Below, one piece after another: positions 1 to 61,754 of a stretch of 64,000 nt of DNA (the stretch's first letter is position 1; each line of letters opens with the position of its first letter). The stretch is taken from positions 1 through 64,000 of the IMG/VR virus record IMGVR_UViG_3300032291_002856; one strand, given 5' to 3'. This DNA comes from a virus. The notes below the pieces were generated by a model that had not been told where the DNA came from, made no database searches, and saw nothing but the letters and a program-made list of their open reading frames with translations. A program made the translations under genes and the position numbers.

Positions 1-43
1 CCGTATCTACTGCAATAGTAGATACGGGGGATTTTTTCTTTTT
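1..43 (+). terminator. Rho-independent terminator at the left edge
   Basis: An 11-bp perfect stem (1-11 paired with 17-27, loop gcaat) is followed by T6-C-T5 at 32-43. It would end a plus-strand transcript entering from outside the window. The T-tract is shared with the promoter module that follows immediately. Confidence 0.85.
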
Positions 44-59
44 GTTATGTATTTAGTGG
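32..59 (+). promoter_or_regulatory. Compact extended -10 promoter module, copy 1
   Basis: T6-C-T5 is followed by TG-T-TATGTA (extended -10, hexamer at 46-51) and, 10 bases after the hexamer start, GTGG at 56-59. Four other copies in the first 3.7 kb keep exactly this spacing. A start near GTGG would give a leader of about 30 nt that still contains the AGGAG of the gene at 88. No -35 hexamer is visible. Confidence 0.65.
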
Positions 60-87
60 ATTCGTTACTTACTTATAGGAGACTATC

Positions 88-288
88 ATGTATTTCCCAG
101 AAGACTACCACTTGTGCACGGACAGGGAGTGTGAAGAGCCACAGTGCGTGCAGTACTGTGCCGACATCGACAGCAACAGCGACTACCTAGAGTCCATCTA
201 CGTCAACACGACGGGATGGGTCGGCGTCGACACGTGGGACCCGACCGCCCCAACCGCGGACTTCGAAGGTAACATCCTACCTTTCTAG
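88..288 (+). CDS. Small cysteine-containing protein, unknown function
   Basis: This 66-residue acidic protein has four cysteines near the N terminus (C10, C15, C20, C24), spaced so that a small metal site is possible but not proven. It lacks a signal peptide or membrane segment. The ATG is preceded by AGGAG at good spacing, and the gene has its own promoter module upstream and a terminator downstream, so it is a one-gene transcription unit. I do not recognise the family. Its position among early-type genes suggests a small host-interaction or regulatory protein, which is inference only. Confidence 0.75.
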   Translation: MYFPEDYHLCTDRECEEPQCVQYCADIDSNSDYLESIYVNTTGWVGVDTWDPTAPTADFEGNILPF

Positions 289-291
289 TCC

Positions 292-339
292 TCCCCACAT
301 CCCTGCACCGCTTCGGCGGTGTGGGGATTTTTTCTTTTT
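292..339 (+). terminator. Rho-independent terminator after the first small gene
   Basis: CACCGC-ttcg-GCGGTG forms a tight hairpin, extended by CCCCACA/TGTGGGG pairing, and is followed by T6-C-T5 at 328-339. The T-tract doubles as the start of promoter module 2. Confidence 0.85.
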
Positions 340-355
340 GTTATGAATATTGCGG
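328..355 (+). promoter_or_regulatory. Compact extended -10 promoter module, copy 2
   Basis: T6-C-T5-G, then extended -10 TG-T-TATGAA (hexamer 342-347), then GCGG at 352-355, ten bases after the hexamer start as in the other copies. It lies just upstream of ssb and would give a leader of about 30 nt with a GAAGGAG ribosome site. Confidence 0.65.
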
Positions 356-385
356 GATTTGTATCTTTATTTGAAGGAGACTATC

Positions 386-826
386 ATGTCAAAGGACGTC
401 AACCGGATTACGATTACCGGAAACTTGGGAGCCGAGGTGGACGCTCGGTACACTGCAGCCGGTCGCATTGTCAGCAACTTCTCAGTTGCTGTCAATCAGT
501 CCTACAAGAACACCGACGGCGAAGTCATCAAGTCCGTGGAATGGTTTCGCGTGGTGGCCTGGGACAAGCTCGGCGAGATTTGCAACGAGTACCTTGTAAC
601 AGGTACTCGAGTGTACATCGAGGGTCGATTGCAGCAGCGTCGCTACACTGCCAAGGATGGCAGCGAGAAACTCGCTGTGGAAATCGTAGCCGCTGAGATG
701 ACAATTCTCAGCGCCCCGCCCGAACAACCACAACCTGCGCCTGCGCCTACCGAAAAACCAACCCTCAAAGGTACAATGGTACCTAAGAAACGGTCAACGG
801 TCTCGGACGAGCAAGCCAACGTCTAA
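386..826 (+). CDS. ssb: Single-stranded DNA-binding protein (OB fold)
   Basis: The 146-residue product binds ssDNA during replication and recombination. Residues 4-110 match the bacterial SSB OB fold: the opening 'RITITGNLG', then a 'VEWFRVVAWDKLGEICNEYL' core and the strand 'VYIEGRLQQRRY'. A proline-rich linker follows, and the tail ends in 'DEQANV', so the classic acidic tip with terminal phenylalanine (DDDIPF type) is missing. The host SSB partner network may therefore not dock on it. The ATG at 386 has GAAGGAG upstream. The gene has its own promoter module and terminator. A second, unrelated ssDNA-binding candidate is at 23,851. Confidence 0.93.
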   Translation: MSKDVNRITITGNLGAEVDARYTAAGRIVSNFSVAVNQSYKNTDGEVIKSVEWFRVVAWDKLGEICNEYLVTGTRVYIEGRLQQRRYTAKDGSEKLAVEIVAAEMTILSAPPEQPQPAPAPTEKPTLKGTMVPKKRSTVSDEQANV

Positions 827-830
827 ATCA

Positions 831-869
831 AACCCCTACACAGCATTTCGCTGTGTAGGGGTTTTTTTT
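831..869 (+). terminator. Rho-independent terminator after ssb
   Basis: A 12- to 14-bp stem (831-844 with about 849-863, loop atttc) is followed by eight Ts at 862-869. Confidence 0.9.
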
Positions 870-885
870 ATTGAGTTTCGCACAT

Positions 886-1246
886 CCCGCTCGCTTCGCT
901 CGCGGGTTAATTCGGTGTTTGGCGATCCACTTCGTTCCTCGCCAAAACCGTGTATTCCCCGATCCACTTCGTGTCTCGGGGTATCACACATTCCCCGAGC
1001 GACCGCGGTCGCTCGGGGAAGTCAGAGCGGTGCCGCTGGGTAACAAATGCGCTCCGACTTCGTCGGTGCAGGCGCATTTGTTTTGCCAGCGGACCTGTTT
1101 AGCTCGCGCCCTGGCCGCGCAGACTCGCTAGCGCTCGCTGCTGCCAGGGTACATACCTCGCTTCGCGAGGCGCTCGCGTTGGCCGGCGCTTCTCGCTACG
1201 CTCGCCGTGCTAACGCACGGTGTGTGCTCGCTACGCTCCGCGCACA
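886..1246. repeat. Nest of about ten palindromes and hairpins
   Basis: Stems seen: 886-890/902-906; 918-925/939-946; 957-962/976-981; a perfect 30-base palindrome at 991-1,020; a two-level stem 1,033-1,039/1,086-1,092 plus 1,042-1,052/1,072-1,082 with an inner 1,054-1,058/1,062-1,066; 1,109-1,115/1,143-1,149; 1,156-1,161/1,165-1,170; 1,184-1,188/1,203-1,207; 1,205-1,210/1,215-1,220; 1,221-1,227/1,240-1,246. The second and third share the loop pattern ATCCACTTCGT, and several loops contain CGCTACGCTCG or CTTCG. No T-run follows any of them, so they are not ordinary terminators. Confidence 0.85.
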
Positions 1247-1365
1247 GCGCCTACAGCGGCCACGATGGAATCAGAAGCAGCTCGAAACCCAGGCAGCCCC
1301 AGCCCCAAACCGAGGCGGCTCGCTGCGGCTCGCTGAGCCAGCCAGCCCAAGAACTGCGCTTGCCC

Positions 1366-1448
1366 CCGTTTCCAACCCTTTCTGGGCGCTCTTTAGAAAT
1401 TAGTCTCTCTGTATTACTCCGTTTCCAACCCTTTCTGGGCGCTCTTTA
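1366..1448 (+). repeat. Two copies of a 30-bp direct repeat (GGGCGC core)
   Basis: An identical 30-base unit occurs at 1,366-1,395 and 1,419-1,448, a 53-base period. Its core CTTTCTGGGCGCTCTTTA resembles the TTTCTTGGGCGCTTCTTT repeat found four times at 7,279-7,827. An AT-rich stretch follows each copy in both clusters. Confidence 0.9.
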
Positions 1449-1460
1449 AAAATTTATTGC

Positions 1461-1488
1461 TTTTTTCTTTTTGTTATATATAATGTGG
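1461..1488 (+). promoter_or_regulatory. Compact extended -10 promoter module, copy 3
   Basis: T6-C-T5-G, extended -10 TG-T-TATATA (hexamer 1,475-1,480), then GTGG at 1,485-1,488. No terminator hairpin precedes this copy; the second 30-bp repeat does. It should drive the gene at 1,516. Confidence 0.65.
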
Positions 1489-1515
1489 ATTATGTATTTT
1501 ATAAAGGAGTGTACT

Positions 1516-1830
1516 ATGGAAAGTGTCTTCACAATCGAATTGTTCCACACGGGTCTGTCTGCACTGCAAGCCAACGTCATCCGCGCACGGTACAGCGAGC
1601 GAGACCTGCAGGCCCAAAGTCGCACGACCACGCCCATAACCGTGACGCACCAAAACGTCGTTTTTGGAGTCCGTGCCGAAAACCCAGAAGACGCCAGAAT
1701 TCTGGGCTCCCGCATGTGGAACAAACTCGCTCTAGACGCCCGTCGCTGTGGCCGTGGAGATTGGCCATTCAAAGGAGTCTCTATCAAATCACATGCAGAG
1801 GTTTTACTCCAGGAAGAGTGGTTCGAGTAA
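1516..1830 (+). CDS. Unknown protein, 104 aa
   Basis: The ATG at 1,516 follows AAAGGAG and lies about 30 bases after promoter module 3. The product has a mixed alpha/beta pattern ('TTTPITVTHQNVVFGVRAENPEDARILGSR', quoted in part: TTTPITVTHQNVVFGVRAEN) with no transmembrane segment and no metal site. I do not recognise it. The next promoter module begins 15 bases after the stop, so it is probably transcribed alone or with read-through. Confidence 0.75.
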   Translation: MESVFTIELFHTGLSALQANVIRARYSERDLQAQSRTTTPITVTHQNVVFGVRAENPEDARILGSRMWNKLALDARRCGRGDWPFKGVSIKSHAEVLLQEEWFE

Positions 1831-1844
1831 ATACACGCCGGGGC

Positions 1845-1872
1845 TTTTTTCTTTTTGTTATAGTTGTTGTGG
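1845..1872 (+). promoter_or_regulatory. Compact extended -10 promoter module, copy 4
   Basis: T6-C-T5-G, extended -10 TG-T-TATAGT (hexamer 1,859-1,864), GTGG at 1,869-1,872. The preceding sequence shows no strong hairpin. It sits just upstream of the gene at 1,899. Confidence 0.65.
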
Positions 1873-1898
1873 TTTCAATTTTACATTCTGGAGGCGCT

Positions 1899-2135
1899 AT
1901 GAAAGCAACACTTCGCGACGTTTTGTCCAGGGTCAATGTCGGTACCATGTACGGTACACTGGAGGTCGAGCTCGGCTCTGACTCGACCCCAGAACACCAA
2001 ATCGGAACGGAGGCTGTTCAAGAGGCAATACGCTTTTTGAAGACATCCACTTCAGGGCACGAAGACGTAACTGAATTCGAGATTCAGTACGAAAACGGAA
2101 ACACGTATGTATTCTATCTTGACGCTGACTACTAA
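1899..2135 (+). CDS. Unknown small acidic protein, 78 aa
   Basis: The ATG follows TGGAGG at good spacing and promoter module 4. The product begins MKATLRDVLSRVNVGTMYG and ends with 'YENGNTYVFYLDADY', an acidic alpha/beta protein without a recognised motif. It heads a tightly packed run of genes to 3,646. Confidence 0.75.
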   Translation: MKATLRDVLSRVNVGTMYGTLEVELGSDSTPEHQIGTEAVQEAIRFLKTSTSGHEDVTEFEIQYENGNTYVFYLDADY

Positions 2136-2145
2136 GGAGCAAACA

Positions 2146-2481
2146 ATGCCTAAGCACACAATGGTAATCGACTACGTTTTGTCGTCACCCGACTTCGACA
2201 CAATCAAGAACTCCATCAGCGTATCCGTGTCCGACAATACGCGATGGAACGTCGCACAGGCAGCGGCCATCAAACTCATGCAAAATTCGCCAATAACTCT
2301 GCCAACCAACATGATGTCCTGGATTCTGAACAATACGCAAAATCCAGAATACGTGTGGCATCAAGGTGAACGCGTAACCTGCGTTTTTAAACTCCCGCTT
2401 CGCCGTATTCGATTCCTCAAAAGCACTGACGAGCAAATTGCATTAGGAAAGTATGCAATTACTGAAGGAGGCTACCTATGA
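2146..2481 (+). CDS. Unknown protein, 111 aa
   Basis: The start is the ATG at 2,146, which has AAGGAGC just upstream; an earlier in-frame ATG at 2,107 lies inside the preceding gene and has no ribosome site. The stop overlaps the next start as ATGA, which indicates translational coupling. The product is soluble, with an Arg-rich segment 'PLRRIRFLKS' near the C terminus. The family is not recognised. Confidence 0.75.
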   Translation: MPKHTMVIDYVLSSPDFDTIKNSISVSVSDNTRWNVAQAAAIKLMQNSPITLPTNMMSWILNNTQNPEYVWHQGERVTCVFKLPLRRIRFLKSTDEQIALGKYAITEGGYL

Positions 2482-2933
2482 GCAAGCACGACATCTATGT
2501 ATTCGCCGACAGTGTAAACTGCTCGGCGATTCAAAACACAAAACATGAATGGTATATCTACGAAGACTTAGGTATGGACCTACCAGTATTCACGGGAACT
2601 GCTTACGCAACACTCATCTATCTGCGTGGCCGATTGGCACAGAAGCAGTATCAGTACCCAGTGCCAAAAGAAAAACTGAAGACCATACTCAGAGCACTGC
2701 TAGATTCTATCCAAGATTACCAGATTGGAAGCTACGTCGCCACCGAAATTCTCGGACTTGTAGCCGACGTAGCTGTCGATGATTGGGACTCTTTTTCCGG
2801 ATCCGTGCATCTATTAGTAACAAAAGGAGAAGAACTCGGCCTAACGCAAGACCAACAGGTAGTTATCGACGAACTCGACAACTGGCACACATTGTTTATT
2901 CACGACAAGGAGAATGCACCAAATGCCAACTAA
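2478..2933 (+). CDS. Unknown protein, 151 aa
   Basis: It starts at the ATGA overlap with the previous gene and has GGAGG upstream. The product is soluble and mainly helical, with an acidic C-terminal half and the internal stretch 'IQDYQIGSYVATEILGLVAD'. No catalytic motif is visible. It belongs to the 1,899-3,646 operon. Confidence 0.75.
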   Translation: MSKHDIYVFADSVNCSAIQNTKHEWYIYEDLGMDLPVFTGTAYATLIYLRGRLAQKQYQYPVPKEKLKTILRALLDSIQDYQIGSYVATEILGLVADVAVDDWDSFSGSVHLLVTKGEELGLTQDQQVVIDELDNWHTLFIHDKENAPNAN

Positions 2934-3222
2934 CAAAGCAGCCGTAATCAAAAACATCGCACGCCGTTTGAAAATCAAAGCGGATTGGGACACGTCGGTT
3001 AAACTGTGGGACATCCGCTTCAATGACAATGACGGATGGGTGCAGGCCACCACAGGTGAAGCGTACATCGCAATGGTCACCCTCGAGTACGACTACGCTG
3101 CTCGAGGACACCGTTGTGAAGTATGCTATCAAGTATACGCCGAATCGCAACAATACATGACAGGCTCAGGTATGCGTACTCTCTGTATCGGATGCAAACA
3201 CAACTACGTAGAAAAGGTGTAA
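2923..3222 (+). CDS. Small zinc-ribbon-like protein, 99 aa
   Basis: The chosen ATG at 2,923 lies nine bases after AAGGAG; the ATG at 2,914 is too close to that site. It overlaps the preceding stop by 11 bases. The C-terminal half carries CEVC and, about 25 residues later, CIGC, a two-knuckle pattern typical of zinc ribbons. A nucleic-acid- or protein-binding role is plausible, but the family is not recognised. Confidence 0.7.
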   Translation: MPTNKAAVIKNIARRLKIKADWDTSVKLWDIRFNDNDGWVQATTGEAYIAMVTLEYDYAARGHRCEVCYQVYAESQQYMTGSGMRTLCIGCKHNYVEKV

Positions 3223-3223
3223 C

Positions 3224-3646
3224 ATGTTCTCAAAACCAATCATGTCCAAAGCGCTGGTCGCCTCTCTGTCAGTGACGGAGGAGGCGGCCAACTGGCTCTA
3301 CGACACAATCACGCCCGTACTCCCGTTCAACATCGGATTTCTTCAAAAATTCGAGTTTGACATGGTGCCCGCTATCCACCAGTGGGTGCTGGACTACTGC
3401 AAAACGTTCAAGCACTTCAGACTCGGCGAACTGCGTGAAGAAATCTTCCACATTCAAATGGGCAAGAATGTGGTGTCTTTGCAACACATTCTAGATTTCC
3501 CCGAAACTGAATACTTCGCGGCAAATCTCTCGTGGCCGTTTTTCAACCTAAATGAGTTGGGCCTCTTCACAACCATCATCCCATGGGAAGAACCCAACAT
3601 AGAAAGAGAAGAGTACGAAGATATCGGTCCGTTCGCACGTCTCTAA
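3224..3646 (+). CDS. Unknown protein, 140 aa
   Basis: The ATG follows the previous stop by one base, with AAAAGGT as a weak ribosome site, so coupling is likely. The product is helical, with hydrophobic and aromatic-rich stretches ('NLSWPFFNLNELGLF') but no clear transmembrane helix, and it ends acidic. It is the last gene before a strong terminator. The function is unknown. Confidence 0.72.
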   Translation: MFSKPIMSKALVASLSVTEEAANWLYDTITPVLPFNIGFLQKFEFDMVPAIHQWVLDYCKTFKHFRLGELREEIFHIQMGKNVVSLQHILDFPETEYFAANLSWPFFNLNELGLFTTIIPWEEPNIEREEYEDIGPFARL

Positions 3647-3653
3647 TTACCAA

Positions 3654-3692
3654 CCCGCAGGTATTCTCTACAAATACTTGCGGGCAGTTTTT
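3654..3692 (+). terminator. Rho-independent terminator of the 1.9-3.6 kb operon
   Basis: CCCGCA (3,654-3,659) pairs with TGCGGG (3,679-3,684), extended inward by GTATT/AATAC, followed by T5 at 3,688-3,692. The T-run is also the start of promoter module 5. Confidence 0.88.
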
Positions 3693-3714
3693 CTTCTTGT
3701 TATAGTTTAAGTGG
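3688..3714 (+). promoter_or_regulatory. Compact extended -10 promoter module, copy 5
   Basis: TTTTTCTTCTTG, extended -10 TG-T-TATAGT (hexamer 3,701-3,706), GTGG at 3,711-3,714. This is the most diverged T-tract of the five, but the spacing is unchanged. It should drive the ArdC-like gene and the genes behind it. Confidence 0.65.
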
Positions 3715-3738
3715 GTTTGTTACAATAAGGAGTTTGCA

Positions 3739-4599
3739 ATGACTGCAGTACAGACAGACAAAATGTGGGCACCGTTGGTCGAGGCCTTGGTAGAGGCATT
3801 GGAAAACCACGAAATCACCGGAGAATGGAAACAACCATGGACTTCCATGCAGCACACAAATGCTGCGACGCTGCGTCCGTACCAGTCCATGAACGCACTC
3901 GCATTGTCAGTAGCGTGCTGGAAAAAACCCCGCACGCACGCAATCTGGGCCACGTACAAACAGTGGCAAACCCTTGACCTCCAAGTCAAGAAAGGTGCAA
4001 CAGGAACCGCGCTTTGGACTCCTCCACGATTCATCAACAAAGACGCTGACGATGGCAGCAAAATCAAAATGCGTATACATGCAGGCATCTTCTACGTATT
4101 TAACGCGGATGATGTAGAAGGTTTTGTGCCACCACAAGAAGAAATTTCTGAAACACAGCGTCTTGTCGATGCAGAATTCTTTCTGCACAAGCAAAGTCCT
4201 AAAGTCGTATTCGGCGACCCGACGCGTGCATTTTACACGCCTAACCAAGATTTTATCAACATGCCCGAATTTGTAAATTTCAAATCGCCAGAGGCGTACT
4301 ACGCCACCCTGGCACACGAATTGGTACACTGGACCGGCCACAAGTCTCGACTTGACCGACTCAGTAAAGACCGCGGCGTTGAATACGCAATTGAGGAATT
4401 GGTTGCCGAATTCGGATCAGCCATGATTTGTAGCCACCTGGGTATAGCATCCGAAACTCGCGAAGACCACCAGCAATATCTCAGCCTTTGGTACAGCCGT
4501 ATCAAATCAGAGCCAGATATTGTACGCAAATGTGTGTTAAAAGCCTCACAGGCATTTAACTATATCAACAGCAGCAGTAATGCAGAGGAGACGGCATGA
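3739..4599 (+). CDS. ArdC-like antirestriction protein with zincin domain
   Basis: The 286-residue protein has the two-part ArdC layout. The N-terminal domain (about 1-125) has the family pattern 'YQSMNALALS', 'KKGATGTALW' and 'FYVFNADDVEGF' and is known in the family to bind ssDNA. The C-terminal metallopeptidase-like domain has HELVH (H193, E194, H197) followed by 'TGHKSRLDR' and the downstream 'EELVAEFGSA' helix. ArdC-type proteins protect incoming DNA from restriction; whether this one cuts a protein is unknown. The ATG has AAGGAG upstream and promoter module 5 in front. The early-type context fits protection right after DNA entry. Confidence 0.9.
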   Translation: MTAVQTDKMWAPLVEALVEALENHEITGEWKQPWTSMQHTNAATLRPYQSMNALALSVACWKKPRTHAIWATYKQWQTLDLQVKKGATGTALWTPPRFINKDADDGSKIKMRIHAGIFYVFNADDVEGFVPPQEEISETQRLVDAEFFLHKQSPKVVFGDPTRAFYTPNQDFINMPEFVNFKSPEAYYATLAHELVHWTGHKSRLDRLSKDRGVEYAIEELVAEFGSAMICSHLGIASETREDHQQYLSLWYSRIKSEPDIVRKCVLKASQAFNYINSSSNAEETA

Positions 4600-4805
4600 G
4601 CAACGCAAGCTACGTAGCATTTGAACACGCGGTGACTGACATGAAAGAAGCCATCAAGAAAATGGAAAAGTACATCGACGGAGAAGAAATCTCGCCATCA
4701 GAATTTCTGTACCTCCGTCAACTGTATCTCCAATGCCAAGAATTCACTGAAGCACTCGACAGTGCAGTCAACGGCGGAGACTTAAACGAAGACTTCACCT
4801 GGTAA
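4596..4805 (+). CDS. Unknown small helical protein, 69 aa
   Basis: It starts in an ATGA overlap with the ArdC-like gene, with GAGGAGA upstream, so the two are translationally coupled. The product is entirely helical and highly charged ('MKEAIKKMEKYIDG', 'YLRQLYLQCQEFTEALDSAV'), resembling a small two-helix coiled coil. A partner role for the ArdC-like protein is possible from coupling alone. The family is not recognised. Confidence 0.75.
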   Translation: MSNASYVAFEHAVTDMKEAIKKMEKYIDGEEISPSEFLYLRQLYLQCQEFTEALDSAVNGGDLNEDFTW

Positions 4806-4816
4806 ACGTAATAGCA

Positions 4817-4842
4817 GCGGGGGTAGAATTTCCTGCCCCCGC
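4817..4842 (+). other. Intergenic GC-rich hairpin upstream of a ribosome site
   Basis: GCGGGGG (4,817-4,823) pairs with CCCCCGC (4,836-4,842) around a 12-base loop. No T-run follows; the next element is the TTAGGAG ribosome site of the gene at 4,859. It resembles the hairpin at 6,472-6,496 and may be an RNA processing or stability element. Confidence 0.6.
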
Positions 4843-4858
4843 ACACTTAGGAGACACC

Positions 4859-5320
4859 ATGCACAACCACGATGCACCAACAATCGAAATCATCAAGGCC
4901 GCAAAAGACACAATAAACGAGGAACTCTACGAGCGACTCGAAGGTATCGGCACAGCAGTAATGGACAAACTCAAATCCAAGCACTCCTCCCTCGTAGAAA
5001 ACTTCGATGACCGCGTCATTGAGAAGTATCTCAACAACGTACTGAATGGATACTACGACCCATTTGAAGCTCTGTATGACGAAACCGAGCTAGAACTGGC
5101 CATCGAAGAAGCTGACCCGTATCTCAACGAGCGCACGTGCGACAACTGCACAGGCGCGTATGCAACCATTCGCTGGTCAGATGGAGAAGTCCAGAAGGTT
5201 TTCTTTTCTTTTATGCAGGTTAGAGAAGATGGTGATGATGAAGCCGTCTTCTATTATATGGAGGATAGAAATGACCTATACGTAGGCTACAGTAACGGGG
5301 AATGGACTATCGTAGAATAG
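4859..5320 (+). CDS. Unknown acidic protein, 153 aa
   Basis: The ATG follows TTAGGAG. The protein has an N-terminal helical half and a C-terminal beta-rich half ('YATIRWSDGEVQKVFF', 'VFYYMEDRNDLYVGY') with one CxxC (DNCTGAY preceded by RTC). It is strongly acidic and soluble. I do not recognise it. Confidence 0.75.
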   Translation: MHNHDAPTIEIIKAAKDTINEELYERLEGIGTAVMDKLKSKHSSLVENFDDRVIEKYLNNVLNGYYDPFEALYDETELELAIEEADPYLNERTCDNCTGAYATIRWSDGEVQKVFFSFMQVREDGDDEAVFYYMEDRNDLYVGYSNGEWTIVE

Positions 5321-5327
5321 GTATCCA

Positions 5328-5633
5328 ATGTCAAACGCTCTAGAGTTTTTCAGGTTCTTTCTTGCTAAACCTAACACACAATTGTCTATACAACAGCGGT
5401 TCGCATCGCTGTATGTCTGTAGACTCTATGTTCAGGAAGGAGGTGAGATATTTTCAAGACCGGACCTAAAAAACCACAGACAAATTCTAGAACGTTGGCG
5501 CAATAAACAGCGCGTGTGGGTACACCCAGAAGCAGACGCTATCGTGTACTTCCACGCGCTCGACTTAGCCAAGCATCTACGACTAAGCTACACGTTGGCC
5601 GAACGACTCGACCCTGACAATCGCATGCCTTAG
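5328..5633 (+). CDS. Unknown protein, 101 aa
   Basis: The ATG at 5,328 lies seven bases after the previous stop, with only weak purine-rich sequence upstream, so it probably relies on coupling. The N-terminal half is helical and the rest is basic. No recognised motif is present. Confidence 0.68.
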   Translation: MSNALEFFRFFLAKPNTQLSIQQRFASLYVCRLYVQEGGEIFSRPDLKNHRQILERWRNKQRVWVHPEADAIVYFHALDLAKHLRLSYTLAERLDPDNRMP

Positions 5634-5646
5634 GAGCACGTGCACA

Positions 5647-6459
5647 ATGCAAAAGCATCTATTGCCTATCAATCTCATCGAGAATACCCAAAACGGTAAA
5701 CTCAAAGGCGACTCCGTAAACTACAACTTCTTGACTACATATCAAGAAGTCGGCCCTAGCTGCCCAACCAGTTGCTGGTTTCATCCGGAATCCATCCATC
5801 TCACCGAACGTAAGCTCATCGGCCTCAATGCGTGCTATACTCTCAAGGGTCAGATGGCCAGACACGTATCCAAAGCCAAATTCGCAAATGCAGTGTGGGA
5901 CGGCAACGAGCTCAACATCCTGCGTCAAGACCTTGGCTTCAAGTTCCTTATGCACGCCTCAGGTCGCAAAGCAATCGACGGTATTCGCTGGAGTACCGGC
6001 GGCGATATTCTGCACCCCGACACTGGCGAGGTGTGGGATGACTTCGTAGACCTTATCATAGACGCAAACAACAAAGCACTCGAGCTCGGTATCCCCACCA
6101 TTGGCTTCACAGCCACATGGCGTATGCCAGGCGCCCAACGTCTTCGTGGCCACTTCCACGCATCGTGCCAATCAGAAGCCGATGTGCTCGAAGCTGTAGC
6201 AATGGGATGGACCGTAGCATACGCAGTGCCCAAAGGCAAAGTAGAAGAAGCGCTGGCATTCTTCAAACTTCACGGCATTGACGGCTGCTGGTGCCCCGAG
6301 CAAGCAGGTAAAACAGACTCGTGTGCCAATTGCGGCATCTGTGCACGCTACAACGCCTACGTCCACAAACAACATCCACTAGAGCCTCACTTCATGCGGT
6401 ATCGTCGCAAAGACCGCAGTATCAACGTACCACGCTCTATCGTGCTCGTCAGCCACTAA
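5647..6459 (+). CDS. GP88-like cysteine-rich phage protein, 270 aa
   Basis: The N terminus has the phage GP88-type layout: a 'NGKLKGDSVNYNFLTTYQ' lead, then CPTSCWF (C39, C43) and C63. Nine cysteines in all are seen, with C174 and a C-terminal cluster C214, C216, C226, C229, C232 ('CWCPEQ...CANCGICARY'). Such spacing suggests bound metal, either zinc or an iron-sulfur cluster. There is no CxxxCxxC as in classical radical SAM enzymes. The middle part contains 'RWSTGGDILHPDTGEVWDDF' and 'GIPTIGFTATWRMPG', a barrel-like alternation. The ATG follows TAGGAG. GP88 family function is not established, so none is assigned. Confidence 0.7.
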   Translation: MQKHLLPINLIENTQNGKLKGDSVNYNFLTTYQEVGPSCPTSCWFHPESIHLTERKLIGLNACYTLKGQMARHVSKAKFANAVWDGNELNILRQDLGFKFLMHASGRKAIDGIRWSTGGDILHPDTGEVWDDFVDLIIDANNKALELGIPTIGFTATWRMPGAQRLRGHFHASCQSEADVLEAVAMGWTVAYAVPKGKVEEALAFFKLHGIDGCWCPEQAGKTDSCANCGICARYNAYVHKQHPLEPHFMRYRRKDRSINVPRSIVLVSH

Positions 6460-6471
6460 TCATTAGTAATC

Positions 6472-6496
6472 GCGGGGTAGTTAATCGCTGCCCCGC
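6472..6496 (+). other. Intergenic GC-rich hairpin
   Basis: GCGGGG (6,472-6,477) pairs with CCCCGC (6,491-6,496). It is of the same type as the hairpin at 4,817-4,842: between two genes, just before a ribosome site, with no T-run. Confidence 0.55.
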
Positions 6497-6511
6497 AAGA
6501 AAGACACAGCA

Positions 6512-6760
6512 ATGCCAATCAGCCAAGACATTCGTGACATCCGTCTTAAGTACGACTGCGTAGTGTTCGACTGGACTATCACAGACGTGGCCAACCAACT
6601 TCGCCGCATGCACCCAGAGCTCAGTATCGAAGAAGCATTCGAGCGCGCATTGCCCTTCTGGAACGACAAACTCAAGACGGCAATCGTAGCATCCGTAATC
6701 GTCGCAGGTATCGAAGCTATCGAAACATACATCAATGAAAGAGACTACACCAATGGGTAA
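6512..6760 (+). CDS. Unknown small helical protein, 82 aa
   Basis: The ATG lies after a purine-rich AAGAAAG. The product is helical with an Ile/Val/Ala-rich stretch ('TAIVASVIVAGIEAIETYIN') that is amphipathic and probably too polar to be a membrane helix. Its end overlaps the next start by eight bases. No family is recognised. Confidence 0.7.
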   Translation: MPISQDIRDIRLKYDCVVFDWTITDVANQLRRMHPELSIEEAFERALPFWNDKLKTAIVASVIVAGIEAIETYINERDYTNG

Positions 6761-7148
6761 TCGCACAGCAATCGGATTCCGTCGCCTTCATTCAGACCTC
6801 AACACTGTGTATTTGTACATCCACTGGGATGACTACGCAGGTATCAAACCAGAATTCTCGCCCCTTGTATCCCATATTGTCAACCACACTCGGCCACGCT
6901 GGGATGACTATGTCTACGCCACCCGTATGGCCATCTCGCATGTCATCGGAGATGAATACAACAGCCAATTCGGTTATGGGGTTACGGCAAATCACTATCC
7001 AGACATCGACTACCCATCAATCGCAATCATCAGCTTCCACGACCAGTGCATTACCCGAGTAGAGGCCAACCCAACACAAGAAACTCCCGAGGTAGTACTG
7101 TGGAGAATCAACTTCATGCACGTACAATACAACTACATAACAGAGTGA
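6753..7148 (+). CDS. Unknown protein, 131 aa
   Basis: The ATG at 6,753 (product MGNRTAIGFRRLHSD) is preferred because AAAGAGA lies ten bases upstream; an in-frame ATG at 6,735 would extend it by six residues into the preceding gene. The product is rich in Tyr, His and Asp and appears to be a soluble alpha/beta protein. It is the last gene of the plus-strand block, with a terminator 22 bases after its stop. The function is unknown. Confidence 0.7.
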   Translation: MGNRTAIGFRRLHSDLNTVYLYIHWDDYAGIKPEFSPLVSHIVNHTRPRWDDYVYATRMAISHVIGDEYNSQFGYGVTANHYPDIDYPSIAIISFHDQCITRVEANPTQETPEVVLWRINFMHVQYNYITE

Positions 7149-7170
7149 AAAAAAAAGCTAGCAGCAATCC

Positions 7171-7209
7171 AGGCCGGGCATGCATTCGTGCGTGCCTGGC
7201 CTTTTTTTT
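7171..7209 (+). terminator. Rho-independent terminator closing the plus-strand block
   Basis: AGGCC (7,171-7,175) pairs with GGCCT (7,198-7,202), with inner GGCA/TGCC pairing, followed by eight Ts (7,202-7,209). Confidence 0.88.
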
Positions 7210-7278
7210 GTGTCGACGATGTCGGCCGCGCTGCGGCGCGGCGGAGTTTCCACGCAGCCAGGCAGGACCCGTGCCTCC

Positions 7279-7827
7279 TTTCTTGGGCGCTTCTTTCTTT
7301 TAAATCAGTTTTCCCAGCCTCTCCCCACATTTGCACCTTTTCTTGGGCGCTTCTTTTTTGGAAATCAGCTTTTTCCCCTCATCTCAGCCAGGCTCCGGAT
7401 CCACCGAGGGTGCATGAGGGAGTCGGTCGGACTATTTTCGGCCAGCACGCCAAGTTTCCCCGCGATTCGTGCCACTTTTGACGCGTTCTGCTGCCATTTG
7501 CTGACGTTTCGGCCACTTATGGGACGTTATGTCAAGTTAACATTGTGATTTTTCTCCCAAAACAAAAGTTTAATAGCACATTTTCGCTCGAGATCGCCGG
7601 CCACAGGCGTATTCTGCTGCAAAATAATGAAAATGTCGGAATTCTGTCACACACTAGCTCATTCAGCGTCCCACTTTATTCCTCTGCCATATAAAAGTGA
7701 CTGGGTAGTCATCATACTAGATAACCCCCAGCCACTATGAATCCCATCCCCACTGCCTGCCGTTTCTTGGGCGCTTCTTTAATTGAATTTAGCTTTTCAC
7801 ACGTCCTCTTTTCTTGGGCGCTTCTTT
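7279..7827 (+). repeat. Four copies of the repeat TTTCTTGGGCGCTTCTTT
   Basis: Exact 18-base copies lie at 7,279-7,296, 7,339-7,356, 7,763-7,780 and 7,810-7,827. Each is followed by an AT-rich tail resembling AATTCAGCTTT, giving a unit of about 35 bases. They come as two pairs (60 and 47 bases apart). All point the same way and match the core of the two repeats at 1,366-1,448. Confidence 0.92.
7691..7736 (-). terminator. Probable rho-independent terminator of the leftward transcript
   Basis: On the minus strand, AGTG-G-CTGGG pairs with CCCAG-T-CACT (7,733-7,736 and 7,727-7,731 with 7,701-7,705 and 7,696-7,699), followed by TTTTATAT. It lies about 95 bases past the last minus-strand stop. Confidence 0.55.
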
Positions 7828-7830
7828 TAT

Positions 7831-8178
7831 TTAATTCAGCTTTGAGCTCTTTACCCAAATATCCATAATCCGTACCTTTTCGTATGGACTGTCCTGTTCT
7901 ACTTCTATTCTCGCCTCTAAATCTTTTTTATGCAGAGAAAGTACATATCGTAACGTATACCAGTATGTTGGCTGTTCCTTTGAAATACTAATGTCACAGC
8001 GATCAGCCATTGCAAGTAATTGTTTTACTTGTGTTGCTTTTCCTAATTCTGACAGCCATAAAGATGCGGCATCTGTCTTCTTCTTCATACTTGATTCAGA
8101 TATCTCTTGTGCAGTGCTAATAACGCTCATAGCGTAATCTTCTTCTGTCCAGAGTTCTTTTTGTATGTATTCTTCCAT
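7831..8178 (-). CDS. Unknown protein, 115 aa, end of leftward block
   Basis: The ATG is preceded by AAGGAAA on the minus strand. The protein is helical and charged, with a central 'KATQVKQLLAMADRCDISIS' helix pair and a beta-rich end ('TLRYVLSLHKKDLEARIEVE'). No transmembrane helix is present, so it is not an evident holin despite lying beside the endolysin gene. The function is unknown. Confidence 0.75.
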   Translation of the reverse strand: MEEYIQKELWTEEDYAMSVISTAQEISESSMKKKTDAASLWLSELGKATQVKQLLAMADRCDISISKEQPTYWYTLRYVLSLHKKDLEARIEVEQDSPYEKVRIMDIWVKSSKLN

Positions 8179-8197
8179 CTTGTATTTCCTTATAATC

Positions 8198-8214
8198 AGT
8201 TCCCCGGGGGAACT
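8198..8214. other. Perfect 17-base palindrome between two genes
   Basis: Eight bases on each side of a central G at 8,206 are fully complementary (AGTTCCCC/GGGGAACT). It lies in the gap after the endolysin stop. No T-run follows, so it could be an operator-like site or a chance palindrome. Confidence 0.45.
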
Positions 8215-8831
8215 TATTCCTGAGTCTGCATACGAGTAGCATGGGCGACCAGTTTATCTGCATACCCCTTGCCTGGTACTGCCCACGTTCCTTCAAGACC
8301 TGCAAGAGTAGGTGCACATCCAACAACTTTCGGTGGCAGTGGTCGTCGAGCTGTGTGTTCCTTCAAGAACTCTTTTTGTTCGTGTGTTCTCTCTGGTTCT
8401 TTTGTAGCGTATCCAAGTAACCGCGAAATATGTCCGGGGACACTTCCTCGATCCCATGTATCAAAACGCAATCCCTTTTTCCATATGCGAGCCTCGTCGT
8501 CATAAGACCATTCCCAGTATGACGCATCCTTTGGTAGGCTCTTTGCTGTTTGCCCTGTTACTCCAATACCAGCGGGGTTTCTTCTTGGACGTTTACTCCA
8601 GAAGCTGCTCAAGAAACCAGTCTCGTGAATCATCTGTGCAATTGCTATGCATGGATCTACTCCAATTAACTCGCCTACAGTAAAGTAAGCGGGGATAATT
8701 ACGTTCTCCAAATCGTGGCGTGTGTAGTTTGACGACACAGGCATACGCTCGAACACATACTCGGTTGCCTGCTTTTGCGTGCACCGTGCAGGTGCCATAA
8801 CCTTTGAATCTCTCGTTACTGGCTCACTCAT
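8214..8831 (-). CDS. Endolysin with glucosaminidase-type domain, 205 aa
   Basis: Residues 45-95 match the glucosaminidase/lysozyme-like core: 'VGELIGVDPCIAIAQMIHE' with the likely catalytic Glu70, then 'TGFLSSFWSKRPRRNPAGIG'. This family cuts the glycan backbone of peptidoglycan. The C-terminal third has 'GTWAVPGKGYADKLVAHATR', which is usual for phage glucosaminidases. There is no signal peptide or transmembrane anchor, so release would need a separate holin, and none was recognised nearby. The ATG has GGGAGAG upstream and overlaps the preceding stop by eight bases. Confidence 0.8.
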   Translation of the reverse strand: MSEPVTRDSKVMAPARCTQKQATEYVFERMPVSSNYTRHDLENVIIPAYFTVGELIGVDPCIAIAQMIHETGFLSSFWSKRPRRNPAGIGVTGQTAKSLPKDASYWEWSYDDEARIWKKGLRFDTWDRGSVPGHISRLLGYATKEPERTHEQKEFLKEHTARRPLPPKVVGCAPTLAGLEGTWAVPGKGYADKLVAHATRMQTQE

Positions 8832-10603: not shown

Positions 10604-11689
10604 TTACTTGTTTAATAAATTTTCAATACGTTTCCCAATCCACGTAATTACGGGAACTGGCCATGAGTTACCCAATGCCCTAAATCTTAAGTAGTCTGGG
10701 CATTTTTCAGCTGGCTTGCCGTTATAAGGTATCTTAGTGTAGTTGTCAGGAAAACCTTGTAAGCGTTCATACTCTGTCGCGCTTAAGTTTCGCACAAGAG
10801 AGTCGCTAACAGCAATAATTTGAGACTGATCAGTAGACAAAGTGAACGTCTTATTTTCACTCGTAAGGAATCCACTTCCGCCGCCAAACTTATCGCTAAG
10901 CCGCTCTCCTCCCTTTTCCCCCGTGTACCGTCCCTTTCCTCTAAACTTATAAGCTATCGCTACAGCATCTCGTCCGGATACATCTTCTTCATTGCCTCGT
11001 AAAGGTAAACCGGCACTCGTTTTTGAATCTTCGCTGCTCTCCGTACGTAACCCTGCGCTGCTTTTAAACTCAAATAATACTTGCCCAATGTCGATGTCTT
11101 CTCGAGCACTTGCGACAACAAACAAACGTCTGCGTCGTTGGGCAAGTCCGAAATGTTGAGCGTCCAGTACTCTCCAGACAACTGTTCTTTTCGGCCCAAC
11201 AACCAAACCCGCGTCTGCCCACCTTCTGTTTGATAACGTGATAGGTTCTTGCTCTCCGGCAAGCTCTCCAACAAAACAACCGAAGGCATTGTCTGGCGTG
11301 TTGAGAACTCCTGGCACGTTTTCCCAAAAAACAATTGCGGGTTGCTGTCCGTTTGATCCTCTAATTTCGTCAATTGCATCGGCTACCTCGCAAAATTTTA
11401 AAGTTAAGTTAGCTCTTGAATCTGTCAGAGATTCTCGATTACCTGCAGTACTGAATGCCTGGCAAGGAGTTCCGCCGCAAAGTATATCCGGGGATTCAGC
11501 TACTTTAGATTTTATCAAATCTTCTAGGCCGAGCATGTCCCCGTAGTTTACTACGTCAGGGTAGTGATGCTTAAGCACAGCACTAGGGAATTGATCTATT
11601 TCACAGTACCATTGTGGCGCCCATCCGAGCTTGCCCCATGCAACTGTTGCTGCTTCGATGCCTGAACAAACTGATCCGTAAGTTAGCAC
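10604..11689 (-). CDS. DNA (cytosine-5) methyltransferase, 361 aa
   Basis: The enzyme transfers a methyl group from S-adenosylmethionine to C5 of cytosine. Motif I is 'GSVCSGIEAATVAW' (5-18), the catalytic motif IV is GTPCQAFS (Cys76), motif VI is WENVPG (E123), motif VIII is the QRRRRLF stretch near 185, and motif X is the C-terminal 'LGNSWPVPV'. The region between about 200 and 310 is the variable target-recognition part, so the site cannot be read. The start is GTG with AAGGAG upstream. No restriction endonuclease neighbours it, so it is probably an orphan that protects phage DNA. Confidence 0.93.
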   Translation of the reverse strand: MLTYGSVCSGIEAATVAWGKLGWAPQWYCEIDQFPSAVLKHHYPDVVNYGDMLGLEDLIKSKVAESPDILCGGTPCQAFSTAGNRESLTDSRANLTLKFCEVADAIDEIRGSNGQQPAIVFWENVPGVLNTPDNAFGCFVGELAGEQEPITLSNRRWADAGLVVGPKRTVVWRVLDAQHFGLAQRRRRLFVVASAREDIDIGQVLFEFKSSAGLRTESSEDSKTSAGLPLRGNEEDVSGRDAVAIAYKFRGKGRYTGEKGGERLSDKFGGGSGFLTSENKTFTLSTDQSQIIAVSDSLVRNLSATEYERLQGFPDNYTKIPYNGKPAEKCPDYLRFRALGNSWPVPVITWIGKRIENLLNK

Positions 11690-11722: not shown

Positions 11723-11807
11723 TGGTGCCAGAGACGGGAGTCGAACCCGTACGAGTGTTCCTCAACGGTTTTTAAGACCGTAGCGTCTGCCATTCCGCCA
11801 CTCTGGC
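11723..11807 (-). tRNA. tRNA-Leu (anticodon UAA)
   Basis: A complete class II cloverleaf on the minus strand: acceptor GCCAGAG/CTCTGGC, anticodon stem ACGGT/ACCGT with loop CTTAAAA (anticodon UAA), a long variable arm and T loop TTCGACT. The CCA end is encoded (11,723-11,725). Confidence 0.93.
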
Positions 11808-11808
11808 T

Positions 11809-11872
11809 TGGTTGTCACCGGTTGGAATCGAACCAACGCCATTCAAGTCCCTACCACTGGGCGACGGTGACA
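11809..11872 (-). pseudogene. tRNA-like element lacking an anticodon arm
   Basis: On the minus strand, GTCACCG and CGGTGAC pair as an acceptor (eight pairs if the flanking T-A is counted). T8 and a D arm follow (GCCC, loop AGTGGTA, GGGA), and there is a perfect T arm (GTTGG, TTCGATT, CCAAC). Only about ten bases (CTTGAATGGC) remain between the D and T arms, where about 24 are needed, so no anticodon stem can form. The 3' side continues A-ACCA, so a CCA-like end is present. The remnant around ACTTGAAT recalls tRNA-Gln(UUG), but this is weak. It is either a decayed tRNA or a deliberate tRNA mimic. Confidence 0.7.
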
Positions 11873-11878
11873 CTTAAT

Positions 11879-11954
11879 TGGTGGGCCAAGCAGGATTCGA
11901 ACCTGCAACCAAATCGTTATGAGCGATCTGCTCTGACCTTTGAGCTATTGGCCC
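11879..11954 (-). tRNA. tRNA with CAU anticodon (Met or Ile2)
   Basis: A complete 76-base cloverleaf: acceptor GGGCCAA/TTGGCCC, D arm GCTC...GAGC, anticodon loop CTCATAA (CAU), T loop TTCGAAT, encoded CCA at 11,879-11,881. A CAU tRNA may be elongator Met or lysidine-modified Ile2; the sequence alone does not settle this. An initiator is unlikely because the first acceptor pair is G-C. Confidence 0.9.
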
Positions 11955-11964
11955 AGATAAATAC

Positions 11965-11989
11965 CAGCGGAGCTCTATTACCCCGCTGA
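11965..11989 (-). other. Hairpin upstream of the tRNA cluster
   Basis: CAGCGG pairs with CCGCTG around a 12-base loop, between the glycosyltransferase stop and the CAU tRNA. No T-run follows on the minus strand, so it is more likely a processing hairpin for the tRNAs than a terminator. Confidence 0.4.
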
Positions 11990-12007
11990 TATCTATTATA
12001 CAATAAT

Positions 12008-12565
12008 TTAATCCCAACGGTCCCAAGGCGTACGAAGATAGTTATAGTATCCCAGGTAATCGTCCAGTTTTAAAAGACCCCCGTATATGTAAGCCTGCTC
12101 AGCCATGATACCGTCTGCCACGTAGTCAAGCGTATAGCGCAAATATTTCATTACCTTACCGCGAACCATGTAACAAGAAGTATCGATGTTGCCGACACAC
12201 GGATACGCGGTGGGCTCAAGTCGTACACTGTTGTTTCTCCACACTTGCCCCCACGTAATCATATTCAAGTGGCCGTAATTTAAGTCCTTGACCGTATCAT
12301 ACCATCGAGGATGAATAATATTGTCGTCATCTAAGATGTAAATCCAGTCTTCATCGTTAAATTCAATTGAGTCAAGTGCGTAATTCCGATTAGGATTACC
12401 AGCAAAACCTGTGTACGGAGAGTGCAACACAACAGCGTTTTCAACTTCTGGCTTGTCCTGCACAGACTGGTCGTATACAACTACCCAACGGCACTCTTTT
12501 GGAATAGACGCGCCGATTTCTGCTAAGTTTTCCGGGCGAGTGCAGGGTGTAATAATGTAGATCAT
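12008..12565 (-). CDS. GT-A-type glycosyltransferase-like protein, 185 aa
   Basis: The N terminus 'MIYIITPCTRPENLAEIG' and the acidic motif 'YILDDDNIIHPRW' (D79-D81) match family 2-type glycosyltransferases, where the Asp triad holds the metal and nucleotide sugar. It is short for the family and probably a single GT-A domain. The ATG has AAGGAA upstream. It follows a second glycosyltransferase by 13 bases, so the two form a pair. The acceptor is unknown: modified phage DNA, a host surface glycan or a virion protein are all possible. Confidence 0.75.
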   Translation of the reverse strand: MIYIITPCTRPENLAEIGASIPKECRWVVVYDQSVQDKPEVENAVVLHSPYTGFAGNPNRNYALDSIEFNDEDWIYILDDDNIIHPRWYDTVKDLNYGHLNMITWGQVWRNNSVRLEPTAYPCVGNIDTSCYMVRGKVMKYLRYTLDYVADGIMAEQAYIYGGLLKLDDYLGYYNYLRTPWDRWD

Positions 12566-12578
12566 AAATTTTTCCTTC

Positions 12579-13382
12579 TTACTCAGCTAAATTTTTCATA
12601 AACTCTGAATTACATCTGTTAATTTGGTGCAAAATAACGTACAGCTCTCCAGAGTCATTTAGTATTTTATTATCTTGAACGTTTAGATCGTCAAAAGAAA
12701 CACTATCCAATGTCAGTATTTGAGAACTTTTGTATGGTAGGATTTTTGTAGAACCTGCGTGTGTGTGGTTATAAATGTAAATATTGTACAAGCCTTGGTC
12801 CGGAACGTTTCTAAAACCTGGCTTATTCTCCCGCGCGTCGGCGTAGAATTTTAAGTACTTCACGATACCGGCATACTTACCTAGAGTCGTACCTGCACAC
12901 ACTACTGGCTGATTTTCAAAATTCTCAATGTTGTAATCAGCCGCGGCAGACGCCTGTTCAATCCAATGCCTGTTTAAACCTGAACTACTATTGCTTCTGT
13001 CCGAGAGTATGTTTCGTTCCGCGGCACAGTACAGCTGCTCTTTAAACTCTATAGAAAACGGATCACCCTGGAAAACAACGTCGTCTAGATCACTAAACAT
13101 TATCTTATCGACGTCTTCAGCAGACCATTTAGACAGTATGTCGTAGTAAATTTCAAAACGATTTAACATCAACTCGTACTTAAAGACAAAGTCACTGTAA
13201 ATTTGAAAGTTGTATTCAGCGCACAGATCCTCCAGCTCCTTAAATATTTTACCCCTCTCGCACAATATAATTACTTTGCAATCCTGATTGTACTTTCTTA
13301 AGCTCTTTGCAAAATAGTATATCCCACCCTTGTCAGTTTTTAAACTGTTGTACCCACTATAAACACCAAAGATGACGTTCAT
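12579..13382 (-). CDS. GT-A-type glycosyltransferase-like protein, 267 aa
   Basis: The protein has an N-terminal Rossmann-like segment ('MNVIFGVYSGYNSLKTDKGG'), the metal/sugar-nucleotide motif 'MFSDLDDVVFQGDPF' (D98, D100, D101) and a downstream 'PDQGLYN' motif, all typical of GT8- and GT77-like retaining enzymes. There is no signal peptide, so it acts in the cytoplasm. The ATG has AAGGCGG upstream at somewhat long spacing. It is the upstream partner of the glycosyltransferase at 12,008. The substrate is not predictable. Confidence 0.72.
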   Translation of the reverse strand: MNVIFGVYSGYNSLKTDKGGIYYFAKSLRKYNQDCKVIILCERGKIFKELEDLCAEYNFQIYSDFVFKYELMLNRFEIYYDILSKWSAEDVDKIMFSDLDDVVFQGDPFSIEFKEQLYCAAERNILSDRSNSSSGLNRHWIEQASAAADYNIENFENQPVVCAGTTLGKYAGIVKYLKFYADARENKPGFRNVPDQGLYNIYIYNHTHAGSTKILPYKSSQILTLDSVSFDDLNVQDNKILNDSGELYVILHQINRCNSEFMKNLAE

Positions 13383-13444
13383 GCTGCTACCGCCTTTTAC
13401 ATTTTTAAATATGCCAAGATTTTATTTTTCCACCGAGTAGTGGT

Positions 13445-13520
13445 TGGTACCGGCGGAGGGAATCGAACCCCCGACAACCTGCTTAGAAGGCAGATGCTCT
13501 ATCCGCTGAGCTACGCCGGC
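13445..13520 (-). tRNA. tRNA-Arg (anticodon UCU)
   Basis: A complete 76-base cloverleaf: acceptor GCCGGCG/CGCCGGT (first pair G-U), anticodon loop CTTCTAA (UCU, reads AGA), T loop TTCGATT, encoded CCA at 13,445-13,447. Confidence 0.93.
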
Positions 13521-61476: not shown

Positions 61477-61754
61477 AGTTTACTGTGTACGAATGGGTGG
61501 AGAGCAACGGAAACTTTCGCATAAAGTTTACCGTTGCTTCTAACAAACAAGACAGATTAGAGCCATACGATATAACAATTCCGTTTACTGGGGAGGACCC
61601 TCAGCTGTTTATGAGCAAACTGCGGAATTACATGGTTTCGCATGTTTCGTATATTGATAATTTAAAAGCCGCTAAAAATGTACTCAGCGGCTTTACGTTT
61701 ACAGACCCGACTGTTCATTACTACGAGAATATAGGAGATAACGATGTTACTTAG
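61473..61754 (+). CDS. Unknown protein, 93 aa
   Basis: It starts in the ATGA overlap and ends overlapping nrdJ by 11 bases, so it is coupled on both sides. The product is beta-rich at first ('FTVYEWVESNGNFRIKFTVA') and helical later. Coupling to MazG and NrdJ suggests a nucleotide-metabolism accessory, but no family is recognised. Confidence 0.75.
   Translation: MKFTVYEWVESNGNFRIKFTVASNKQDRLEPYDITIPFTGEDPQLFMSKLRNYMVSHVSYIDNLKAAKNVLSGFTFTDPTVHYYENIGDNDVT

Follow-up and report, generated by a model that had tools for sequence, protein, structure and literature searches.

The window, that is, the whole stretch of DNA analysed here, is 64,000 nucleotides long and forms part of a viral record of 68,078 bases. 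At 5647-6459 it contains a gene for a protein of 270 amino acids, which lies in a run of short genes on one strand together with an antirestriction gene. This region holds the following features:

3697-3726, plus strand: promoter-like site before the ArdC gene, a match to the consensus only, with a regional count of such sites near the shuffled mean
3739-4599, plus strand: ArdC-type antirestriction protein (domain matches to ArdcN and MPTase-PolyVal), kept upstream in the related loci L001, L021, L006 and L022
4596-4805, plus strand: 69-aa ORF of the same run (ORF call)
4859-5320, plus strand: 153-aa ORF of the same run (ORF call), no confident family in the family searches
5328-5633, plus strand: 101-aa ORF directly upstream of the gene under study, with homologues directly upstream in L021 and L006
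5632-5636, plus strand: Shine-Dalgarno-like AGGAG, read directly in the sequence 10 nt before the ATG, where it may promote initiation
5647-6459, plus strand: ORF of 270 aa with ATG start, related to DUF7227/GP88 and predicted to form a radical-SAM-like barrel
6512-6760, plus strand: 82-aa ORF downstream (ORF call)
6735-7148, plus strand: 137-aa ORF downstream, PHROGs match to phrog_31860 (unknown function)
7171-7202, plus strand: terminator-like hairpin of 14 pairs with a T tract that closes the run; another one lies at 3654-3684 before the run

Positions 1-8300 contain 14 terminator-like sites compared to a mean of 8.1 in shuffled sequences, and strong hairpins of this type are found between short ORFs at 299-328, 830-864 and 7171-7202. 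The same-strand genes from ArdC to the 137-aa ORF may be transcribed as a single unit, or early. The antirestriction neighbour named in the original prediction is a genuine ArdC gene carrying both domains at 3739-4599, though it was seen only in the subfamily of the 270-aa protein.

A comparison with the 96% identical copy in the viral contig L001 revealed 41 synonymous and 15 non-synonymous changes (dN 0.024, dS 0.275, dN/dS about 0.09), and for two relatives in L021 and L022 dN/dS is about 0.06. The pattern is absent from the two other forward frames in the comparison with L001. The gene is under purifying selection, and the low dN/dS values indicate that it is maintained as a protein.

The protein had been described as GP88-like, which holds at the level of the superfamily: DUF7227 (PF23872) was matched by 57/57 aligned members and GP88 (PF17338) by 20/57 (E up to 0.01), and the pattern of the DUF7227/GP88 superfamily, seven invariant cysteines and, likewise at constant positions, Y, R, GD and S, is present in the 270-aa protein. 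Direct membership did not stand, as the protein itself gave no GP88 match up to E 10 and reached only 20.5 bits with DUF7227, below the cut-off of 27. For this reason we do not call it a plain member; on sequence grounds it represents a deep-branching subfamily next to the DUF7227/GP88 proteins of phages. Using tblastn, relatives with 22-26% identity were found in the Thermus phage phiFa and in two Tunturiibacter phages, and the proteins of phiFa and Tunturi_1 reach E values of about 1e-30 with DUF7227 and of 1e-6 to 1e-7 with GP88. The Tunturi_1 protein gp84 (L004, 6004-6696) is labelled as a DNA methyltransferase; only DUF7227 and GP88 exceed the Pfam cut-off, and we therefore set this label aside as a probable misannotation.

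The family is frequent in phages. When viral contigs were scanned once with a family alignment, 240 relatives came up (80 of them were returned), the Tunturiibacter protein matches 171 phage records, and DUF7227/GP88 occurs in phages of cyanobacteria, Pseudomonas, Thermus and Acidobacteria. Two plasmid copies of the phiFa protein and none of the 270-aa protein were found. One of the two, encoded on a Variovorax plasmid of 293 kb (L120, 3926-4606), is located near a YqaJ viral recombinase, and this plasmid may be a phage-plasmid. Chromosomal copies were not found in two scans of genome contigs with short patterns, which cannot prove absence. DUF5131 (Gp37/Gp68) is not present in this phage, and the matching PHROGs families are of unknown function. 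Among the papers listed in searches of the open-access literature, none describes the DUF7227/GP88 family; the gp88 mentioned in the excerpt of PMC8066314 is an unrelated gene number.

For the analysis of conserved positions 92 fetched loci were thinned by shared 4-mers to 61, and these were aligned with the 270-aa protein and two phage proteins. In a tree of these 64 sequences (midpoint rooting, used for drawing only) the protein forms one group with L001, L021 and L006, with a support of 100/100 and a branch of 2.38 changes per column. As the original prediction stated, the protein contains exactly nine cysteines, at positions 39, 43, 63, 174, 214, 216, 226, 229 and 232. Seven of them (C39, C43, C63, C216, C226, C229 and C232) are conserved in 64/64 sequences, and the same is true for Y64, R114, G119, D120 and S173. 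The division into two cysteine sets can be kept for the invariant N-terminal C39, C43 and C63, and the C-terminal set has to be redrawn as C216, C226, C229 and C232: C214, which had been assigned to it, has a cysteine counterpart in a fraction of only 0.03 of the 64 sequences. Likewise C174, named in addition to the two sets, is outside the C-terminal set and a cysteine in only 0.28 of them. Some of the patterns used to fetch the relatives held C39/C43 or C63, and none held C216-C232, so that the conservation of the C-terminal set is free of this bias. The positions in the gene that are of interest for the following comparison are:

5761-5835, plus strand: codons of the N-terminal triad C39, C43 and C63 (CX3CX19C), 64/64 conserved and located after strand 28-32; predicted catalytic [4Fe-4S] site
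5998-6006, plus strand: codons of G118-G119-D120, where strand 2 (112-118) ends and radical-SAM enzymes have their GGE motif, G119 and D120 being conserved in 64/64; candidate SAM-binding turn
6163-6165, plus strand: codon of S173, which is invariant, lies where strand 4 ends and is paired by hhalign with a serine of MoaA (NVSVDS); putative SAM contact
6292-6342, plus strand: codons of the C-terminal set C216, C226, C229 and C232 (CX9CX2CX2C), 64/64 conserved and located after strand 213-215; predicted auxiliary Fe-S (or zinc) site

The distance between the second and the third cysteine is six residues in 58/64 sequences (CX3CX6C), compared to 19 in the 270-aa protein and 18 or 19 across its subfamily. 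The histidine of a YTH motif, present in 60/64, is replaced by alanine in this subfamily (FTA in the 270-aa protein).

Structures were predicted with AlphaFold2 for the 270-aa protein and for the compact relative L025, using input alignments built only from the window and viral-contig sequences. The alignments comprised 57 sequences (A5, the set above without L009, L071, L075, L084 and L103 of the 61 loci and without the two phage-collection proteins) or 56 sequences (A6, which is A5 without L001). The mean pLDDT was 89.7 for the 270-aa protein and 95.4 for L025, and both models form a (beta/alpha) barrel, with strands at 28-32, 112-118, 151-155, 170-174 and 213-215 in the 270-aa protein. The original prediction had suggested to compare such a model with radical SAM barrels. 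When L025 was used with VIA-align, rows 1-27 of the best 50 were all radical-SAM enzymes, with Z falling from 7.4 to 4.7, and 29/50 rows overall belonged to this class. The best match was QueE (Z 7.4, 162 aligned residues, rmsd 4.4), followed among others by viperin (Z 6.8) and PFL activase (Z 6.4); further radical-SAM rows were EpeE, SuiB, lysine aminomutase, queuine lyase, NifB, spore photoproduct lyase, lipoyl synthase, SkfB and ChlB, and the first protein of another kind appeared at Z 4.6. We take the named matches to be radical-SAM enzymes, in part from the titles of their entries. For the 270-aa protein radical-SAM enzymes occupied 11 of the top 13 and 19 of the best 50 rows, with viperin as the best match (Z 5.8, 167 aligned residues, rmsd 4.0), and small chains of the SpoIIAA (STAS) type ranked 5 and 12 (Z 5.6 and 5.2). 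All these Z values are below 8, where the tool cautions that a match may reflect a common arrangement, and therefore the argument rests on the uniformity of the leading rows.

The order of the motifs along the barrel agrees with the structural comparison. In radical-SAM enzymes the cluster loop follows strand 1, a GGE motif follows strand 2 and a polar ribose-binding residue follows strand 4. The model of the 270-aa protein has C39, C43 and C63 after strand 1, GGD 118-120 at the end of strand 2, FTA in strand 3, S173 in strand 4 and C216 after strand 213-215. Counted on the sequence, E. coli PflA has C30, C34 and C37 and GGE at 78-80, and L025 has C29, C33 and C40 and GD at 80-81; the structural alignment of L025 with PFL activase runs from 1 to 218 in the model and from 3 to 223 in the chain. 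The turn after strand 2 is GGD in the 270-aa protein and also in NrdG.

When the family profile was compared with 158 E. coli ORFs by hhalign, the nine radical-SAM proteins ranked 2, 5, 17, 18, 21, 23, 36, 42 and 52 and tended to be placed higher than the remaining 149 (one-sided Mann-Whitney p 8.5e-5, and 0.021 with the cysteines masked). Part of this signal comes from the cysteines, because p rises when they are masked. No single match was significant given 158 comparisons, and rank 1 went to an ORF located where iaaA (isoaspartyl dipeptidase) lies, which is not a radical-SAM protein. The alignment with NrdG pairs the GGD of the family with the GGD of NrdG, and in the alignment with MoaA, NVSVDS stands opposite the S173 motif (NASCET in L025). 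Against a three-protein alignment of QueE, PflA and NrdG the match was short and limited to the cysteine motif (P 0.24), and against a seven-sequence NrdG alignment P was 0.0066; neither is significant as homology. Single weak NCBIfam matches among the 57 members, including one to NrdG (0.0086) and, in one member too, one to a SPASM maturase (0.047), are at chance level and were not counted as evidence. Searches by sequence revealed no solved relatives of the 270-aa protein or of the family profile. The canonical CX3CX2C motif is replaced by CX3CX19C in the 270-aa protein and by CX3CX6C in most relatives, the Pfam profile Radical_SAM (PF04055) gave no match to the 270-aa protein up to E 10, and Radical_SAM is not among the two families matched by the 57 members (E up to 0.01). 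Since both the motif and the profile match are absent, we do not file the protein as a canonical member of the radical-SAM enzymes. A radical-SAM-type barrel with a cluster site, as anticipated by the original prediction, is nevertheless well supported by structure comparison and motif order, the cluster itself being predicted.

The best reading of the models is that the protein shares the predicted fold of radical-SAM enzymes and would work like one of them. We consider it probable that this small phage protein is an enzyme of the radical-SAM type, equipped with an auxiliary cluster and acting on a small, possibly nucleotide-like substrate. In such an enzyme C39, C43 and C63, placed in the loop that follows strand 1, would hold a site-differentiated [4Fe-4S] cluster. 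SAM would bind to the open iron of this cluster, and the GGD turn (118-120) after strand 2 and S173 after strand 4 would keep the SAM in place. Reductive cleavage of SAM would then generate a 5'-deoxyadenosyl radical inside the barrel, which would act on the substrate located there. C216, C226, C229 and C232 after strand 6 would form a second metal site that closes the mouth of the barrel and perhaps serves in substrate binding or electron transfer. To judge from the sequence, an auxiliary [4Fe-4S] cluster is more likely here than zinc, because a CX2CX2C motif with a CP in front of it has a closer resemblance to an Fe-S site. The auxiliary clusters of other radical-SAM enzymes are located directly behind the final strand of the barrel.

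Since phages of very different hosts carry this bare barrel of 217-270 aa, a small and universal substrate is probable. The bare barrel, its spread over distant hosts and the neighbours of the family gene in phiFa (dCTP deaminase, dNMP kinase, ThyX and ribonucleotide reductase) lead us to a nucleotide or modified base as first choice, a guess which we regard as doubtful. To survey the neighbours across the family, 334 ORFs were called in the 61 loci and 235 of them were scanned (116 + 119), those left out being mostly short. The functions found among these 235 ORFs were scattered and came as single matches (thymidylate synthase, dCTP deaminase, MazG, dUTPase, dCMP deaminase and NUDIX), and no partner common to the family appeared among the matches listed (25 of 27 and 25 of 36 families). 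Taken over the whole family, the neighbours do not discriminate between substrates.

The strongest competing explanation, in our view an unlikely one, is a barrel derived from radical-SAM enzymes that has lost the radical chemistry, with cysteines binding zinc or a structural cluster and a role in host takeover by binding a host component. The non-canonical cysteine spacing, the missing Radical_SAM match and the loss of the near-universal YTH histidine in the subfamily would be in line with such a protein, and CX2C pairs also suit zinc. However, GD, S173, R114 and Y64 are invariant in 64/64 sequences, as expected of an active site, and R114 and GGD are located on the strand where radical-SAM enzymes hold SAM.

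Still less probable is a (beta/alpha) barrel unrelated to radical-SAM enzymes, in which the likeness in strand order would be due to chance and the metal site would be of another kind. This idea draws on the Z values below 8 and on Foldseek, which gave no PDB match below E 0.001 for the 270-aa protein or L025: E was above 0.05 throughout, the first PDB match of the 270-aa protein was E. coli QueE (E 0.098), the list for L025 was a mixture of barrels led by other TIM barrels, and many glycosidases occurred across the matches. A generic TIM barrel would hardly explain that 27/27 leading structural matches of L025 are radical-SAM enzymes and that the motif order agrees with theirs.

Counter-defence beside ArdC, in which a radical-SAM-type enzyme would alter a nucleotide or the phage DNA or use up the SAM of restriction and methylation systems, is a special case counted inside our preferred explanation and seems improbable: the gene shares a run with ArdC between two terminator-like hairpins, and ArdC is kept upstream in four related loci (L001, L021, L006 and L022), but it was not seen outside the subfamily, the only two ArdC matches among the 235 neighbour ORFs fell in the batch that holds the ArdC ORFs of L001 and L021, and the defence-system models of PADLOC matched none of 7/7 family members. 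As ArdC and the ORF of roughly 100 aa are kept upstream within the subfamily, counter-defence is possible there and not a general function.

Returning to a radical-SAM-type enzyme with an auxiliary cluster, the proposal can be extended in a more speculative way. DUF7227/GP88 might represent an unrecognised phage class of radical-SAM enzymes characterised by CX3CX(6-19)C and a closing CX9CX2CX2C auxiliary cluster, and the subfamily described here, with its longer cluster loop and without the active-site histidine, might catalyse a different reaction that counters host defence in concert with ArdC and the 101-aa ORF. We put this forward tentatively, as conceivable and not as expected.

Other parts of the window show further features of this phage. 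A class II (B12-dependent) ribonucleotide reductase at 61744-63894 (plus strand) would be a second radical enzyme. The minus strand carries a C5-cytosine DNA methylase at 10604-11689, overlapped in another frame by a 139-aa ORF at 10960-11379, and tRNA-Leu(taa), tRNA-Met(cat) and tRNA-Arg(tct) within 11723-13520. A single ORF of 5350 aa at 36738-52790 (minus strand) takes up about a quarter of the viral record, and Pfam searches with its two halves yielded a marginal cpYpsA match only.

If the proposal is true, a directly assayable chemistry could be assigned to a frequent phage family of 'unknown function', and the radical-SAM enzymes would gain a further non-canonical cysteine spacing. It would also suggest that many phages carry oxygen-sensitive radical chemistry and that the substrate is likely common to very different hosts. 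Named phages like phiFa on Thermus thermophilus HB27 make the radical-SAM reading testable.

With regard to known systems, the 270-aa protein shares the seven cysteines, Y64, R114, GD, S173 and the predicted barrel with DUF7227 proteins such as Thermus phage phiFa_10 and Tunturiibacter phage Tunturi_1 gp84, and differs from them by 19 instead of 6 residues between cysteines 2 and 3, by an alanine in place of the YTH histidine and by its long branch (2.38). The likeness to GP88 is visible in BFVD models named Gene product 88, which are found among its structural matches at ranks 6 and 9 (E 2e-3 and 8e-3) behind unnamed entries at ranks 1-5 (E <= 0.001). With QueE, viperin, PFL activase, NrdG and MoaA the family has in common the predicted barrel, a cysteine triad after strand 1, GGD or GGE after strand 2 and a serine after strand 4, whereas CX3CX2C and a profile match are lacking and CX9CX2CX2C is added near the C-terminus. 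As to an auxiliary cluster of the SPASM/twitch type, which would be bound by cysteines after strand 6, the protein has four invariant cysteines after strand 213-215, and their spacing, CX9CX2CX2C, differs from the SPASM pattern. PhnJ and ThiC are radical-SAM enzymes with a non-canonical cysteine spacing, and they show that even cysteines with a long gap between them can hold the cluster.
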